Source: Xanthomonas sacchari (GTDB lineage: Bacteria; Pseudomonadota; Gammaproteobacteria; Xanthomonadales; Xanthomonadaceae). Taken from it: a stretch of DNA of 64,000 bases. Below are positions 11,031 to 21,423 of this stretch, one piece after another (the stretch's first letter is position 1; each line of letters starts with the position of its first letter). Location: contig NZ_CP132343.1 in the NCBI RefSeq assembly GCF_040529065.1, positions 4,667,001-4,731,000 on the forward strand, in the 5' to 3' direction. Under the pieces are notes generated by a model. It saw only the letters and a list, made by a program, of their open reading frames with translations. It was not told the DNA's origin and did not search any database. The position numbers and the translations under genes are program-made.

Positions 11031-12329
11031 ATGAGACCCGCCCCGCTCCTGCTGGCCTTGCTCGCGCTGTGGGCGCTGTGCGGCCTGGCCGTGGCACTGG
11101 GCTGGCTGCCGCTGTGGAGCTGGCAGGCGGTCGCGGCGGGCATCGCGCTGGCCGCCGCGCTGGATGCTTGGCGGCTGTGGCGGCGGCCGACGCCGCAGGT
11201 GCGCCGCGAGCTGCCCGAAGCGCTGCCGCTAGGCGTGCAGCGCGAGGTGGTGCTGCACCTGGACAGCGCGCAGCGCCAGCGCGTGGACCTGTTCGACCTG
11301 GTGCCCAGCGGCTGGGAACTGCAAAGCCTGCCGCAACGCATGACCCTGCCCGCCGCGCATCAGACCCAGGTGCGCTACCAACTGCGCCCGACCGCGCGCG
11401 GTCGCTTCGTCTTCGACGGCACCCACCTGCGCCTGCATGCGCCCTGGCGCCTGTGGCGGCAGCAACGCCTGGCCGGGCCGGCGCAGACGGTGCGCGTGTA
11501 CCCGAACTTCGCGCCGCTGACCCGCTTCGCCCTGTTCAGCGCCGAACAGGCCTCGCGCCTGGTCGGCGCGCACCTGAAGCGGCGCCGCGGCGAAGGCACC
11601 GACTTCCACCAGATGCGCGAGTACCGGGTCGGCGACAGCCTGCGCCAGATCGACTGGAAGGCCACCTCGCGCGCGCGCAAGCTGATCTCGCGCGAGTACC
11701 AGGACGAGAAGAACCAGCAGTTGCTGATGCTGATCGACACCGGGCGGCGCATGCTGGCCAGCGAATCCGGTCTGTCGCACTTCGACCATGTGCTCAACGC
11801 GGCGCTGGTGGTGTCGTACCTGGCGCTGCGCCAGGGCGATGCGGTGGGCATGATGGCCAGCGGCGGCGACGCGCGCTGGGTGGCGCCGCAGCGCGGCATG
11901 GCCACGGTCGACGTGCTGCTGCGCGCCAGCTACGACCTGCAGCCGCAGCCGGTGGCCACCGACTACCTGGCCGCGGCCACCGAACTGTCGCTGCGCCAGC
12001 GCCGCCGCGCGCTGGTGATGCTGGTCAGCAACGTGCGCGACGAGGACATCGAAGACCTGCTGGCCGCGGTGCGCCTGCTGCAGCGCCGCCACCTGGTATG
12101 CGTGGCCAGCCTGCGCGAGCGCGAACTGGACCAGGCGCTGAGCGAGGAGGTCCACGACCTGCCGCAGGCGGTGCAGGCCGGCGCGGTGGCGCGCTACCTG
12201 CAGCAACGCAGCGCCGCGCACGAGGCGCTGCGCAGCCACGGGGTGATGGTGCTCGACGTCACCGGCGAGGAACTGCCCGCCGCCCTGATCGAGCGCTACC
12301 TGGCGGTGAAGCGCGACGGCTTGCTGTAG
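11031..12329 (+). CDS. DUF58 domain protein, partner of MoxR
   Basis: 432 residues. Two hydrophobic helices at the N-terminus (about residues 4-22 and 24-42) anchor a cytoplasmic region. The DUF58 signature lies near residues 185-230 (RRGEGTDFHQMREYRVGDS, then RQIDWKATSRARKL). A von Willebrand factor A-like domain follows, with LLMLIDTGRRM carrying the DxG-type metal-site start. It is the last gene of the six-gene operon, separated from moxR by the palindromic element. MoxR-DUF58 pairs are thought to form an ATPase-adaptor system; the target is not known. Confidence 0.88.
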   Translation: MRPAPLLLALLALWALCGLAVALGWLPLWSWQAVAAGIALAAALDAWRLWRRPTPQVRRELPEALPLGVQREVVLHLDSAQRQRVDLFDLVPSGWELQSLPQRMTLPAAHQTQVRYQLRPTARGRFVFDGTHLRLHAPWRLWRQQRLAGPAQTVRVYPNFAPLTRFALFSAEQASRLVGAHLKRRRGEGTDFHQMREYRVGDSLRQIDWKATSRARKLISREYQDEKNQQLLMLIDTGRRMLASESGLSHFDHVLNAALVVSYLALRQGDAVGMMASGGDARWVAPQRGMATVDVLLRASYDLQPQPVATDYLAAATELSLRQRRRALVMLVSNVRDEDIEDLLAAVRLLQRRHLVCVASLRERELDQALSEEVHDLPQAVQAGAVARYLQQRSAAHEALRSHGVMVLDVTGEELPAALIERYLAVKRDGLL

Positions 12330-12372
12330 CGCGACGCTGCGGCCCGTGGCGTCGCTGCCGATCCCCTTTGCA

Positions 12373-12537
12373 CGGGATGCCGCTTACGGTTGGCGGGAAT
12401 GAGCGCCATCTCCGGCGCACAGACGCCTGCTCGGTGCGCAGGCTGTAATGGCGAAGCCGCAGCCGGCCACGGATCTGATCCAACAGCACGGTGGCCAGGT
12501 AAGCAGTGAGGCCTGCATCGTCCCAGGTTTCACTCAT
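12373..12537 (-). pseudogene. intI: Integron integrase (intI) N-terminal remnant, upstream copy
   Basis: From an ATG at 12535-12537 the minus strand encodes the N-terminus of an integron-type tyrosine recombinase, including DQIRGRLRLRHYSLRTEQAS. A +/-1 frameshift follows, after which the frame continues as MALIPANRKRHP, matching the RFILANGKRHP-like region of IntI proteins. Only about 55 residues are left; the SAM-like core-binding remainder and the whole catalytic domain (R-H-R-Y) are absent. The remnant ends shortly after the DUF58 stop. It faces away from the cassette, as in a complete integron. Homologous to the remnant at 19497-19732. Confidence 0.8.
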
Positions 12538-12698
12538 GCGCCTGCTCAATCGTCGGATAACGCAACCAGCATCAAGGCCAGAGCTCCGCGGTGCCATCCG
12601 GCAAGTCATTGGTTGCGGAGTAGGAGTTCCTTCTTCTCAGATCTCCAGCCTTGGTCGATACTGGGCGCAACACCGCTCACGCGGTCCAAGAGTTAGTA
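12538..12698 (+). other. attI: attI-like region of the upstream integron remnant
   Basis: This stretch between the intI remnant and the cassette aligns along its length with 19733-19898, the attI region of the main integron. Shared blocks include GGCAAGTCATTG, a stretch around CTGGCG/CTTGG, and GCGGTCCAA followed by AGTTAG. The insertion core GTTAGTA at 12692-12698 departs from GTTAGGC. It should be inactive or weak. Confidence 0.65.
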
Positions 12699-12710
12699 GG
12701 GCCTCAGGTG

Positions 12711-13022
12711 ATGAGCGACAAATCCCTACCCATTGTTCTAATAGAACTCGCTGTCACGGCGGTCGCCGTCGCTGGGATCTTCTTTGCGCTGAACGTTGGC
12801 CAGGTACCCAACTGCTCTTCCATCGAGAGGCAGGCAATTTTTATGTGGATTCTTCCGGTCTCCGTCACCTTGGGGACTGGCTGCGTTACTGAGCTCCTGA
12901 TCGGAATGCGCGAGGATTCGGGCTTGAGCAAGGCCATTAGCGCTCTATGTGCATTTTCCTTGGCGCTTCTCTGGGTGATCTACAAATGGAAGCTCAACGC
13001 AATTTCAACGCTTGCGTGCTGA
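12711..13022 (+). CDS. Small membrane protein of a solitary integron cassette
   Basis: 103 residues from the ATG at 12711, about 12 bases after the attI-like core. Three hydrophobic segments are visible (about residues 8-27, 43-62 and 75-93), so it should be an inner-membrane protein. I do not recognise the family. The gene stops one base before a degenerate attC site, which is the usual packing of an integron cassette. Base composition is lower in GC than the flanking DUF58 gene. It is the only cassette in this remnant. Confidence 0.65.
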   Translation: MSDKSLPIVLIELAVTAVAVAGIFFALNVGQVPNCSSIERQAIFMWILPVSVTLGTGCVTELLIGMREDSGLSKAISALCAFSLALLWVIYKWKLNAISTLAC

Positions 13023-13023
13023 A

Positions 13024-13083
13024 GCCTAGCGATGCATTCAAGCCGAAGTCGCTTTACGGCGCGGCTTAGCTCAGGCGTCAAGG
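13024..13083 (+). repeat. attC: Degenerate attC site of the solitary cassette
   Basis: The 60-base site has the xanthomonad attC layout seen at 20-26 kb, with GATGCATTCAAGCCGA, a short palindromic centre and GGCTTAGCTCAGGCG. The outer cores are mutated: GCCTAGC in place of GCCTAAC, and GTCAAGG in place of GTTAGGC. Both changes hit bases needed for recombination, so it is probably frozen. Confidence 0.75.
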
Positions 13084-13084
13084 C

Positions 13085-13120
13085 TCCTCCAGCGGATACA
13101 GCTTGAACAGCGCGCCGATC
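13085..13120 (-). repeat. 36-base copy of an internal part of the GspS-like gene; 13121-13415 otherwise empty
   Basis: Bases 13085-13120 are identical to 14552-14587, inside the glutathionylspermidine-synthase-like gene. The copy begins right after the degenerate attC and stops being recognisable after about 13130. The rest up to 13415 holds no gene that I can support; short minus-strand frames there have no plausible homology or ribosome binding site. Confidence 0.7.
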
Positions 13121-13415
13121 GCGGTGTCGGCAGCGGAGCGACCACGTCGGCGATTTGCAGAAGCACGGCGTCCTTCGTCTTACTGGTCATGGTGAGTGCG
13201 CGACGGACACAGCACTGACGCCGAGGCACACACCAGGCATTCCGAGCGCGCCCCCCGCCTCCGCGTTCTGGTGCCCATCGCATCACCTCCGGCAGTCCAA
13301 CGCTCCAACCAACACCGCGCCGTCGTTTCCGTAAAGCGCGGCCATTGCGCAGGATCGATTGCATCCACGCCCTGCGCTCAAATGGCGGCTGCAACACCTC
13401 GCACTTCACGACCGC

Positions 13416-14090: not shown

Positions 14091-15264
14091 ACAGCACGCC
14101 CGGCCGCGCGTCCTCGACGATGGCGTGCGGCAGGAACCGCGCGCTGTCGCGGGTGATCGGGCCATCGTCCTCGCGGATGCCGATGCCGCAGGCGCGGTCG
14201 CCGACGATCCAGCTGCCGACCATCGGGTAGCGGCCCTCGAACGCCGGCAGCGGATGCGCTTGCTGGCGGATGTAGGGTCCGGCATAGGGGCCGTCGCTCT
14301 CCAGCACCCGGCCATCGTCCAGGTGCAGCACGATGTTGGCGCCCTCGCGCGAATGCAGCGGCTTGCGCACCCAACCCGGCGGCAATGCGCTGCCGTCGTC
14401 GAACGCAGCCGGCAGCAGGTTCGGGTGGCCGCGATGGCGCTCCCACAGCAGCGGCAGGATGCCCTTGTTGCTGAGCAGCGCCTTCCACGGCGGCTCCAGC
14501 AGGCGCAGGCCCGAGCCCGGCAGGGCCTGGCCGAAGCGCTCGGCGAACATGTCCTCCAGCGGATACAGCTTGAACAGCGCGCCGATCACCGTGTCGTCCA
14601 GGTCGGTATAGCGGCCGTCGCTGGACAGGCCGATGTCCTCGATGGCGATCAGCTCGCCGCCGACGCCGGCCTGCATTGCGCAGTCGCGCAGGTAGGCGAT
14701 CGTGCCCTGGTCCTCCTCCGAATCGCGCACAGCGGCGAAGTACAGCGGCGGCGGCAATCCGCCGGCGAGCGCGGCGAAGCGCTCCAGCAAGGCTTCGTGG
14801 ATGGAGTTGAACTGGTCGGCGTCGTCCGGCAATCGGCCCTGCGCGCGCTGGTCCTCCAGCCACTGCCACTGGAAGAACGCCGACTCGAACAGCGAGGTCG
14901 GCGTGTCGTAGTTCAGTTCGTACAGCTTGGCCGGGCCGCGGCCGTCGTAGGCCAGGTCCAGGCGTCCGTACAGATGCGGCTCGCGGCGCCGCCAGCTGTC
15001 GGCGATCCAGTCGCGGAACGCCGGCGGGATCGCCAGCCGCTGCATCAGCGCCTCGCTGGCGACGATCTCATCGAGCAGGCCCATCGCCATCGCGTGCAGT
15101 TCGGCGCTGGGATCCTCCAAATCGCGCTCGATCTGGCGCAGGCTGAACGCGTAGTAGGCACGCTCGTCCCAGTAGCGCTGGCCGTCGATGGTGTGGAAGC
15201 GGAAACCGTACTCCGCGGCCTGGGCGCGCCAGTCGCCGCGCTCGACGATCGCGATGCGTTTCAT
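14083..15264 (-). CDS. Glutathionylspermidine-synthase-like ATP-grasp ligase (YgiC/YjfC type)
   Basis: 393 residues from the ATG at 15262-15264. The sequence follows the YgiC/YjfC family: WDERAYYAFS near residue 31, KLYELNYDTPTSLFE near 112 (ATP-grasp acidic motif), GLRLLEPPWKALLSNKG, and the C-terminal AHPLPAFEGRYPMVGSWIVG. YgiC lacks the amidase half of E. coli Gss and is thought to be a peptide-type ligase; its substrate is unproven. The gene follows ygiB-like 15299-15862 by 34 bases and overlaps the zinc-ribbon gene downstream, so the three form an operon. A 36-base fragment of it is repeated at 13085. Confidence 0.85.
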   Translation of the reverse strand: MKRIAIVERGDWRAQAAEYGFRFHTIDGQRYWDERAYYAFSLRQIERDLEDPSAELHAMAMGLLDEIVASEALMQRLAIPPAFRDWIADSWRRREPHLYGRLDLAYDGRGPAKLYELNYDTPTSLFESAFFQWQWLEDQRAQGRLPDDADQFNSIHEALLERFAALAGGLPPPLYFAAVRDSEEDQGTIAYLRDCAMQAGVGGELIAIEDIGLSSDGRYTDLDDTVIGALFKLYPLEDMFAERFGQALPGSGLRLLEPPWKALLSNKGILPLLWERHRGHPNLLPAAFDDGSALPPGWVRKPLHSREGANIVLHLDDGRVLESDGPYAGPYIRQQAHPLPAFEGRYPMVGSWIVGDRACGIGIREDDGPITRDSARFLPHAIVEDARPGVLYA

Positions 15265-19496: not shown

Positions 19497-19732
19497 TCAC
19501 AAACGCCCAAGGCTATGCTGCTTTTCTGGACACATGCGGAGGACGTGCGCGGCCTGCCCCATCCGCGCTGAATGCCGTTCACCATTGACCAGGATGAAGC
19601 GCCCCATCCAGCCAACAGACATTTGCTCGGTACGCAGGCTGTCATGCCGAAGTCGCAACCGGCCCGCACCTGCTCCAGCAACCTCGGCGGTTGATGCGCC
19701 ATTACACCTTCATCGTCACGGGTGTAACTCAT
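19497..19732 (-). pseudogene. intI: Integron integrase (intI) N-terminal remnant next to ilvD
   Basis: From an ATG at 19730-19732 the minus strand reads into LLEQVRA; one missing base then shifts the frame, and the other frame continues RLRHDSLRTEQMSVGWMGRF and ILVNGERH, an unmistakable IntI N-terminus. It ends at a TGA at 19497-19499 after about 78 codons. The rest of the core-binding domain and the whole catalytic domain are gone, replaced by the REP repeat and ilvD. The orientation, opposite to the cassettes, is that of a normal integron. Broken intI genes are common in Xanthomonas. Confidence 0.85.
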
Positions 19733-19898
19733 ACGCCAGCTCGAACATCGGATAACGTAGCCAGCATTGGCACACGGAGCCGCGGCCACCATCAGGCAAG
19801 TCATTGATGCAGGGTGGGAATTTCCCGCTTTGCAGACGTCTGGCGTTGGTGGATACTTGGCGCATCACCGCTTTTGGGCGGTCCAATAGTAGTTAGGC
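19733..19898 (+). other. attI: attI region of the main integron
   Basis: The stretch lies between the intI remnant and the first cassette and ends in an intact core GTTAGGC at 19892-19898, where the first cassette joins. It aligns with 12538-12698. The cassette promoter Pc would be expected in or near the intI remnant, but I cannot point to clear -35/-10 boxes. Confidence 0.7.
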
Positions 19899-19947
19899 TC
19901 ATCAATCGAGCGCATTGCTGACCGCTTCAAATCCAATCATCAACACC

Positions 19948-20283
19948 ATGAGTGCCAGCGACTTCGACCTAACACTGCAAGAGCTGCATCAAAAATCGGT
20001 GCAGCGCCTAATTGCGGCTGAGACATACGATGCAGAAGCCTTCAATCAACTGAAGAGCTATTTGTTCGAGAAATCGAGCGCCATCAAACAGGAGCATGTT
20101 GTCTCCAAGCAGGTTTTATCTGTCATCTTGGATGCAGCTCGCATCATCGAAAGTCGGGCTGAATACATGCCCACGGTGCGAGAGCAGCTACCACTCGCAA
20201 ACGACTTTCACATGCTTCTTGGGCTGATAGCAATTGGTGAAGCTTGGGGCGATAGAACGCCTGGCGTTCCCCGTGTTCGGTAG
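19948..20283 (+). CDS. Integron cassette 1 protein, unknown family
   Basis: 111 residues from the ATG at 19948-19950; a TTG at 19915 in the same frame would add eleven. The product is helical and soluble, with a coiled-coil-like stretch (about residues 10-60) and no signal peptide. I do not recognise it. As the first cassette after attI it is the most recently inserted in a classical array and the best placed for expression from an integron promoter. About 97 bases separate its stop from the attC, an unusually long gap within a cassette. Confidence 0.65.
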   Translation: MSASDFDLTLQELHQKSVQRLIAAETYDAEAFNQLKSYLFEKSSAIKQEHVVSKQVLSVILDAARIIESRAEYMPTVREQLPLANDFHMLLGLIAIGEAWGDRTPGVPRVR

Positions 20284-20379
20284 GCCAGTCAATGACCTCC
20301 GGTGCTATCTCAATTCCTGTTCCGTCGCCTGCTAGTGCAGGCCTGGTGGTACTAGCCAGGCCTTCCACTACACGCCCCA

Positions 20380-20449
20380 GCCTAACTGGTTGTTCAACAG
20401 GACGTCTACCAGCTTCGCTGGCAGTCGCCTGTTAACGCGGGCGTTGAGC
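20380..20449 (+). repeat. attC: attC site of cassette 1 (70 bp)
   Basis: Outer cores GCCTAAC (20380-20386) and GTTGAGC (20443-20449) enclose an imperfect palindrome around CCAGCTTCGCTGG. The centre differs from the common type further along the array, so this cassette has a different attC lineage. Confidence 0.8.
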
Positions 20450-20458
20450 ATCACAAGT

Positions 20459-20905
20459 ATGAGCTACACGCTGCAGGCAGTGATCGCAAAATCGGGAGTG
20501 CTTCCCGATTCTTTACCGTTCGAGTTGGAACGGGTCCAGCTCCAAAGTGGCTTCGAGCTCGTTCCGCTCACATCAAATATTCGAGATGTCCATGGGATTG
20601 CCTTCTGTCCACTGACTGATGAAGGAGACGAAGAGCTTCCACTGTCACTCCTGAAACTTTGCGAGCCTTTGAGTGCAGGCGGAGAAGTTGCCTACATAGA
20701 AGCAGAGATTTTTGGTGGAGCGGGAATGCAAGCTCACGCAATTTTCGCTCATGGCAAAGCAATCGGGTCGCCAGTAGTCGCTCAATCCGCCATCAACACT
20801 GCTCTTGTTAGGCTGGGCGCAGAGCGAGGAGAAGCCACGGACGAATTCGAATCGATCGGTCTAGGTTTGAACCGAGATACAGATCAATGGGTGCCGAGAA
20901 CATGA
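20459..20905 (+). CDS. Integron cassette 2 protein, unknown family
   Basis: 148 residues from the ATG at 20459, nine bases after the cassette boundary; an upstream in-frame start at 20390 lies inside the previous attC and is rejected. The product is soluble, with no signal peptide, and mixed alpha/beta (VPLTSNIRDVHGIAFCP, EVAYIEAEIFGGAGMQAHAI). The region resembles immunity-type or orphan cassette proteins in size only; I do not recognise a family. Confidence 0.7.
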   Translation: MSYTLQAVIAKSGVLPDSLPFELERVQLQSGFELVPLTSNIRDVHGIAFCPLTDEGDEELPLSLLKLCEPLSAGGEVAYIEAEIFGGAGMQAHAIFAHGKAIGSPVVAQSAINTALVRLGAERGEATDEFESIGLGLNRDTDQWVPRT

Positions 20906-20906
20906 C

Positions 20907-20963
20907 GCCCAACCAATCGTTCCATCGGACCGGTCCGGCGGCTGCTGAACTCAAACGTTAGGT
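20907..20963 (+). repeat. attC: attC site of cassette 2 (57 bp)
   Basis: Outer cores GCCCAAC (20907-20913) and GTTAGGT (20957-20963) flank a palindrome centred on CGGACCGGTCCG. The first core has C for T at one position. The site starts one base after the stop codon. Confidence 0.8.
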
Positions 20964-20966
20964 GCC

Positions 20967-21407
20967 ATGTCCAAGCTCCTCTCAATCCTGCTATCGACAG
21001 TTCTGCTCGGTGGATACTCCGCCGCTGCATGCAGTTCTTCACTGGACCTGTATGGTGCTTTCTTCAAGGCCGGCCATCCCATCAAGGGCGAGACGATCGA
21101 CGAGGCTGTTACTGGGGCAGACCAAATTGCCAACTTGAATCGCTCTGTCGAGCTAATCAAGCGCTACCCGGACGTCAGGTTCGAGATTGCGGGCCATACG
21201 GATCAGTATGAGTGTTCCGGGCAAGAGTGCCGCTATCTCGCCCAACGTCGAGCGCTTCTCCTATACAGGTTCCTGCTAGCCGCTGGCGTAGATCCGCTTT
21301 GTGTCATTGCTCTAACCGAGTACGGGACCACTCGCCCGATCGCTGGCAAACGGGAGGAGAACTCGCTCAATCAGCGCGCCGAGCTAAACGTTGACATTGA
21401 GCCGTAA
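20967..21407 (+). CDS. Integron cassette 3: exported OmpA-like peptidoglycan-binding protein
   Basis: 146 residues. Residues 1-21 form a signal peptide with a possible lipobox ending AAAC, so it may be a lipoprotein. The C-terminal two thirds match the OmpA/MotB-like fold: RYPDVRFEIAGHTDQ, then RYLAQRRALLLYRFLLAAGV, and a final NSLNQRAELNVD in place of the usual N-x-R-R-V ending. The Asp and Arg expected to hold diaminopimelate (near GHTD and NQRAE) are there. OmpA-like domains tie outer-membrane or periplasmic proteins to the cell wall. An envelope protein on a mobile cassette is notable. Confidence 0.75.
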   Translation: MSKLLSILLSTVLLGGYSAAACSSSLDLYGAFFKAGHPIKGETIDEAVTGADQIANLNRSVELIKRYPDVRFEIAGHTDQYECSGQECRYLAQRRALLLYRFLLAAGVDPLCVIALTEYGTTRPIAGKREENSLNQRAELNVDIEP

Positions 21408-21423
21408 AGTGCTCCAGCATGAC

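Follow-up and report, generated by a model that had tools for sequence, protein, structure and literature searches.

The window analysed here, a stretch of 64,000 nt from the Xanthomonas sacchari genome G000 (4.96 Mb, one contig), carries an orphan integron head at the 3' end of a DUF58 gene, in addition to the integron at ilvD. The head at DUF58 is real, it is a single old head that is frozen in the window genome, and it is part of an arrangement that recurs in the genus. On our overall reading, to which we assign a probability of roughly 70%, an orphan head consisting of a promoter-like pair, attI, about 85 intI codons, a cassette, and an attC was fixed at DUF58 via an ancient duplication and deletion, was once served in trans, and is now frozen.

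Structure and decay of the head at the DUF58 gene

The original prediction had placed a second, decayed integron start 7 kb upstream of the usual one, and comparison of the window with itself bears this out, as the stretch 12353-12700 aligns to 19548-19897 at the ilvD site with 69.4% identity over 353 columns (E 1.9e-46). The likeness is also above chance in the non-coding part, where the attI portion alone (12555-12700 versus 19750-19897) is 71% identical (E 1e-15). The upstream open reading frame, proposed to be an N-terminal remnant of intI, is indeed related to IntI: with the intact IntI of a relative (L119:9664-10752) as tblastn query, residues 1-64 were found in frame at 12609-12418 with 77% identity, and the DNA homology to intI extends to about position 12353, there in a different frame. 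The single cassette gene and the mutated attC that had been predicted after the DUF58 gene were recovered as well. The parts of the head are the following:

11031..12329, + strand: DUF58 gene, whose 3' end borders the second head (Pfam PF01882, E 1e-28)
12353..12609, - strand: intI 5' remnant (about codons 1-85) that converges with DUF58, its reading frame disrupted past about codon 64
12529..12702, + strand: attI region of the DUF58-site head (attI model E 2.4e-36 in its own genome)
12634..12662, + strand: promoter-like pair TTCTCA-17-GATACT inside attI, a possible array promoter (Pc), with 8 of 12 consensus bases
12696..12702, + strand: attI crossover, by alignment GTAGGGC in the window and GTTAGGC in the relatives G007 and G013
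12711..13022, + strand: single cassette gene, 103 aa, with hydrophobic stretches by eye and no family match
13019..13078, + strand: degenerate attC (attC profile E 3.6e-12), with R'' GCCTAGC at 13024-13030 and R' GTCAAGGC at 13077-13084
13085..13129, + strand: 45-nt fragment of a glutathionylspermidine synthase (GSP) gene at the right edge, 95.6% identical to 14552-14596 and also present in G007

Measured against a complete integron, the DUF58-site head has an attI beside intI sequence, with the crossover changed in the window, and one cassette with a degenerate attC; a functional intI gene is absent, as about codons 1-85 are all that is left and their frame is broken. A CALIN comprises at least two attC sites without intI nearby, and the window has one attC at this site. 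Here, we propose the grouping of orphan attI-headed arrays, in which an attI with an intI 5' remnant heads attC cassettes away from a complete intI; the six DUF58 heads, the secF heads, and others described below belong to it.

The integron at ilvD, which had been taken for the main one, is the other integron of the window, with the refinement that its intI is a 5' remnant too and that it encodes no integrase:

19548..19804, - strand: intI remnant at the ilvD site, lacking an internal stretch between about codons 88 and 340 in a comparison by eye with G003, G009, and G010
19724..19898, + strand: attI at the ilvD site, with the crossover GTTAGGC at 19892-19898 and a promoter-like pair at 19829-19857 (attI model E 1.1e-43)

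IntI residues 48-85 were located at 19664-19551 by tblastn (74% identity), and a possible short 3' scar of the gene can be made out by eye. The internal deletion (about codon 88-340) is common by eye to the window, G007, G009, and G010, in which the ilvD locus is without integrase. A search of the window genome for a full intI (E <= 0.001) yielded none, but only remnants and further matches that we take for XerC and XerD from their position and identity. In the ilvD array, the first cassette-like genes (19898-21418) are parted by sequence that looks attC-like by eye, and the attC profile reported nothing in this array before 21418.

The attI crossover reads GTTAGGC at the ilvD site of the window and in the DUF58 copies of G002, G008, G007, and G013, GCTAGGC in that of G018, and GTAGGGC in that of the window. 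The attC sites of the arrays mostly contain CCTAAC and GTTAG, in place of which the DUF58-site attC has the R'' and R' sequences listed above, and its R' change is common to two close relatives. The GTT of the crossover is required for integron recombination. Thus, with attI crossover and attC both changed, the cassette of the window is probably locked at both ends, and the changed crossover, the broken attC, and the negative search for an IntI together leave the DUF58-site array frozen in the window. Three species carry an intact copy of the cassette gene, and comparing them in pairs gives uncorrected dN/dS values of 0.08, 0.15, and 0.08, from 11-13 synonymous and 3-5 nonsynonymous differences. 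Since it has stayed intact at a low dN/dS, the gene is probably in use and apparently kept by selection. Its 103-aa product has no match in Pfam or NCBIfam and none among plasmids.

Distribution, age, and origin of the DUF58-site head

The same structure was sought after DUF58 in other xanthomonads. The DUF58 gene was found in 18 of the 20 group-1 genomes (E <= 1e-60), and a head adjoins it in six of them, namely G000, G007, G013, G002, G008, and G018; no head was seen beside DUF58 in the other 12, in which about 4 kb or more were inspected. In G005, a fragment of intI covering residues 146-226 lies past ilvD, at a distance of about 2.5 kb. By eye and by alignment, the junction between DUF58 and intI is alike in all six genomes, leading from about 13 nt past the DUF58 stop to about intI codon 85. 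The DUF58-site arrays hold four cassettes each in G002 and G008 and three in G018. In a complete same-site comparison, where cassettes counted as shared if the match covered no fewer than 150 nt and 60% of the shorter one, these three arrays have no cassette in common, and G000, G007, and G013 share one at 95-96% identity. None of the six genomes has an uninterrupted IntI; that of G002 contains an internal stop and that of G008 a frame break, and the others have remnants only.

For a tree of the intI 5' end and attI, 60 rows were taken from the 70 attI hits described in the next section, omitting ten that were short or partial. The six DUF58-site heads form a single clade (support 100/100), which is nested with the ilvD heads of G002, G003, G004, and G014, eight group-2 ilvD heads, and one other head; the ilvD head of the window falls into a different group. 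Constraining the ilvD heads of G000 and G007 to group with the three DUF58 heads of the window type cost 89 log units and was rejected by the AU test (p 1.2e-6). Thus, the two heads of the window are not recent copies of each other, and the DUF58-site head is an old locus. The duplication offered in the original prediction fails as a recent copying of the window's own ilvD head, which the tree and the AU test rule out, and stands only as an ancient event, for which DUF58 3' ends beyond the array speak.

One such end follows about 44 nt after the attC in G013 (282 nt aligned, 90% identical to the genome's own DUF58), and next to it lies sequence that is 87% like the post-DUF58 stretch of G009, a headless genome. 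In G008, a second DUF58 3' end of 60 nt is preceded by pieces of the GSP gene, and in G000 and G007 the 45-nt GSP piece comes after the attC. Judged from the sequences, this suggests the remains of an ancient tandem duplication of a DUF58-GSP-ilvD-integron block that later collapsed. Direct DUF58 repeats would also permit clean loss, as G009 suggests. Most likely, the head has a single origin in an ancestor of these group-1 xanthomonads, where a tandem duplication of the DUF58-ilvD-integron block would have been followed by deletion of most of the first block copy, from about 13 nt past the DUF58 stop to about intI codon 85. An active IntI encoded at ilvD could have served the DUF58 attI in trans, and cassettes may thereby have come and gone in the second array. 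The window's lineage would have seen the GTT of the attC disappear and the last IntI decay; with a mutation of the attI crossover, specific to the window itself, a single cassette gene would have become locked in, and it is apparently under selection. We infer this duplication-deletion route and the order of the losses; the GSP pieces show no single clean event, as the fragments at the right edge in G000, G007, and G008 are unexplained by one simple tandem duplication. Furthermore, with 12 of the 18 DUF58-bearing genomes lacking an adjoining head, many losses or a transfer by homologous recombination would be required.

It could also be that a separate integron was acquired from outside and inserted at DUF58, whereby most of its intI was lost afterwards and no duplication took place. 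This would fit with the DUF58 heads clustering with heads other than the window's ilvD head, and some intI transfer between groups is inferred in the portions of PMC12444791 available to us. Such an insertion would, however, have landed 7 kb from the usual integron and in the same orientation, the DUF58 heads nest within Xanthomonas heads, and DUF58 3' ends on both flanks in two relatives are better explained by local duplication than by random insertion. We therefore regard an outside acquisition as unlikely and prefer the local duplication and deletion. A relocation of the head as a cassette via a site inside intI was considered, since several heads end at about codon 85, but is not favoured, others ending at about codons 53, 67, 75-76, and 123-125. 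No attC-like left border of the heads was seen by eye.

Orphan heads elsewhere in the genus and possible signs of their use

The attI model was built from 17 attI regions, among them both attI sites of the window, which it recovered genome-wide with the E values given above. With a threshold of E <= 0.01, 15 of the 20 group-1 genomes were positive, eight of them with two or more hits, as were 27 of the 35 group-2 genomes, 15 of them with two or more. Sorted by neighbouring genes, the 70 hits comprise 32 at ilvD, 17 at the 3' end of secF, six at DUF58, five in a GTPase region, and ten in smaller groups, several of the latter being weak hits of only about 30 nt. The GTPase region has flanks in common with two loci that hold a GTPase gene with a 50S ribosome-binding GTPase domain (Pfam), presumably that of EngB; the identity of SecD and SecF was confirmed by Pfam. 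As most orphan heads had been found by the attI model, a second survey of the DUF58 and secF loci started from the adjoining genes. In this second survey, secF was present in 34 of the 35 group-2 genomes, and a head trace follows it in 21 of the 34. These traces consist of the 17 attI hits, 16 with an intI 5' piece and one with attI only (L223), and of intI 5' pieces in G121, G122, G132, and G133; the aligned attI ends before the crossover in G121 and G133, and no attI was found at the secF traces of G122 and G132. Among the 13 secF genomes without a trace, coverage reaches a contig end after 0.3 kb in G120 and after 1.2 kb in G136. The AU test rejected a common origin of the 16 secF heads included in the tree (p 2.6e-59), so that these heads would have at least two origins, or have undergone gene conversion. 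Some genomes with a secF head have an uninterrupted IntI, e.g., G143 and G146.

Several further loci were observed in the survey. In G008, six cassettes follow a third attI (L112:4331-4504), which retains an intI 5' remnant and lies about 14 kb from the ilvD-side attI. Orphan attI-headed arrays of 13 and ten cassettes lie at L127:5710-11510 in G002 and at L128:6420-10998 in G018, and the L128 region holds the GTPase gene. At L238:3469-4647, G125 has an almost complete intI (residues 3-361) that is accompanied by attI and nine cassettes, with no ilvD in the 9 kb inspected; the genome also keeps an ilvD-side attI-like stretch (L239). In G139, two places, C1:28455-29349 and C1:5155264-5156158, each carry intI pieces that cover the same residues, 55-353, and lack the first 54. 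A frame of 1078 aa at the presumed "lamG" locus had no Pfam match, and the lamG label is thus unconfirmed.

A pair resembling TTGACA-17-TATAAT and mostly ending in GATACT lies about 69 nt before the crossover in 55 of the 60 heads (at least 7 of 12 bases), compared to 2.1 expected in shuffled rows. It is present in 27 of 29 heads outside ilvD and in all six at DUF58. A sigma-70 scan of the window alone with a stricter cut-off (9/12) revealed no promoter, and it is the position of the pair across the heads that suggests a promoter activity. Sequence conservation was compared between the last 30 nt of attI and the intI part 181-300 nt from the crossover, a stretch common to the heads, several secF heads ending before 301-420 nt. 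The last 30 nt are on average 90% identical among the 16 secF heads, versus 65-70% in the intI part, and 85% versus 69-79% among 18 group-2 ilvD heads (the aberrant rows G145 and G125 excluded). The DUF58 heads show no such contrast (81% versus 82-85%, with 74-86% across the intI part), partly because the window's own attI core has decayed.

Among the matches listed, four orphan heads have a first cassette that, beginning at the crossover, can be aligned along its whole length with an interior cassette of another array. The first secF cassette of G126 is 96.5% identical to an interior cassette of the ilvD array of the group-1 genome G014, that of G142 is 93% identical to one in the third array of G008, and that of G137 is 83% identical to one in the window's ilvD array; the first cassette of the G002 head in the GTPase region is 90% identical to one in the G014 ilvD array. 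The ilvD genes of G014 and of the two group-2 genomes compared, G081 and G146, are 88-89% identical, well below the 96.5% of the cassette. Both attI-proximal cassettes of the secF array in G126 (L245) are 96-98% identical to group-1 cassettes among the matches listed. Likewise among the matches listed, interior cassettes of the GTPase region in G002 are 95-99% identical to cassettes of its own ilvD array, which exchange between attC sites could yield without attI. Since the first cassettes of a few orphan heads match distant arrays from the crossover on, these attI sites probably recruited cassettes in trans. These matches come from other orphan sites, and for the attI at DUF58 itself recruitment would follow from the differing cassettes there; with no uninterrupted IntI in the six DUF58-head genomes, present activity is not seen.

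It might be that the head never worked after its relocation and is dead debris, kept by chance, with the cassette carried along. The window, with its changed crossover and attC and no IntI found, would look the same in this case, none of the six DUF58-head genomes has an uninterrupted IntI today, and conservation of the attI core at DUF58 does not exceed that of the flanking sequence. What makes debris an improbable explanation is that the crossover is still GTTAGGC in G002 and G008 and GCTAGGC in G018, each of these arrays having cassettes entirely its own, that four other orphan heads begin with a cassette matching a distant one over its full length from the crossover, and that the end of attI at secF is better conserved than the shared intI part. 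The split of an ancestral array by rearrangement, also put forward in the original prediction, whereby an inversion or insertion divided one integron into two parts, would account for attC sites of the same kind in both parts, but is highly improbable as each part has its own intI 5' end and attI, which belong to different lineages.

A wider view may tentatively be put forward, which we hold to be possible rather than probable. Xanthomonas integrons might be polycentric, with one integrase having served several promoter-attI platforms at ilvD, DUF58, secF, the GTPase-gene region, and other loci, and many CALINs might be orphan attI arrays recruiting in trans. The 5' end of intI would be lost last because it borders promoter and attI. 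If this were true, each cell would have several first positions and hence several slots that are expressed. Cassette clusters without an integrase are commonly taken as decay or stray insertions; if many clusters in Xanthomonas begin with attI and a promoter, they would be extra loading docks, present or past, which integron counts based on intI, or on attI models of other classes, would miss. Two questions thereby become testable, namely whether one IntI loads several attI sites in one chromosome and whether the retained intI 5' piece marks a minimal working platform. Orphan starts at fixed places may also change the reading of gene-cassette clusters in related plant-associated bacteria.

Relation to known integron systems

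A study in PNAS from 2005 reportedly dealt with Xanthomonas integrons. An integron at the DUF58 site, which the original prediction knew of no description for, was not described in any paper among the literature matches listed, nor was an orphan or repeated attI in Xanthomonas. According to the available portions of Colombi et al. (2025; PMC12444791), ilvD is the site of intI throughout the Xanthomonas genomes, two species excepted, and about half of the genomes have CALINs off ilvD, including sites beside secF and lamG. These portions of the main text contain no mention of DUF58, duplication, or sacchari and place no attI at the off-ilvD arrays. With head traces after secF in 21 of 34 genomes, many of the secF-adjacent arrays that are listed there as CALINs probably possess an attI.

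The delta-attI-type cassettes described in the accessible part of PMC12901181 resemble the DUF58 head in that attI-derived sequence occurs at unusual places of cassette arrays; unlike the DUF58 head, they are reported for mobile resistance integrons, and we regard the likeness as a lead only. A CALIN with its own attI is known from the Shewanella prophage M16-3, where, as far as the available text of PMC9892861 goes, an integron and a second attI-headed array share one replicon. The DUF58 head differs from it in being chromosomal, in belonging to loci that recur across the genus, and in retaining an intI 5' remnant. With CALINs in general, the DUF58-site array has in common that its cassettes lack a neighbouring integrase and that it lies off ilvD, like the CALINs at secF and lamG, whereas a promoter-like pair and an intI 5' remnant accompany the attI at its start, and the window, with one attC at this site, falls below the usual two. 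Also close is the ilvD-adjacent chromosomal integron of Xanthomonas as presented in the available portions of PMC12444791, which has the same intI, attI, and attC families in the same genus and is the other integron of the window; the head described here differs from it by its position at DUF58, by having the 5' end of intI only, and by a lineage unlike that of the window's ilvD copy. The orphan heads are a variant within the known integron system and not a separate kind of system.
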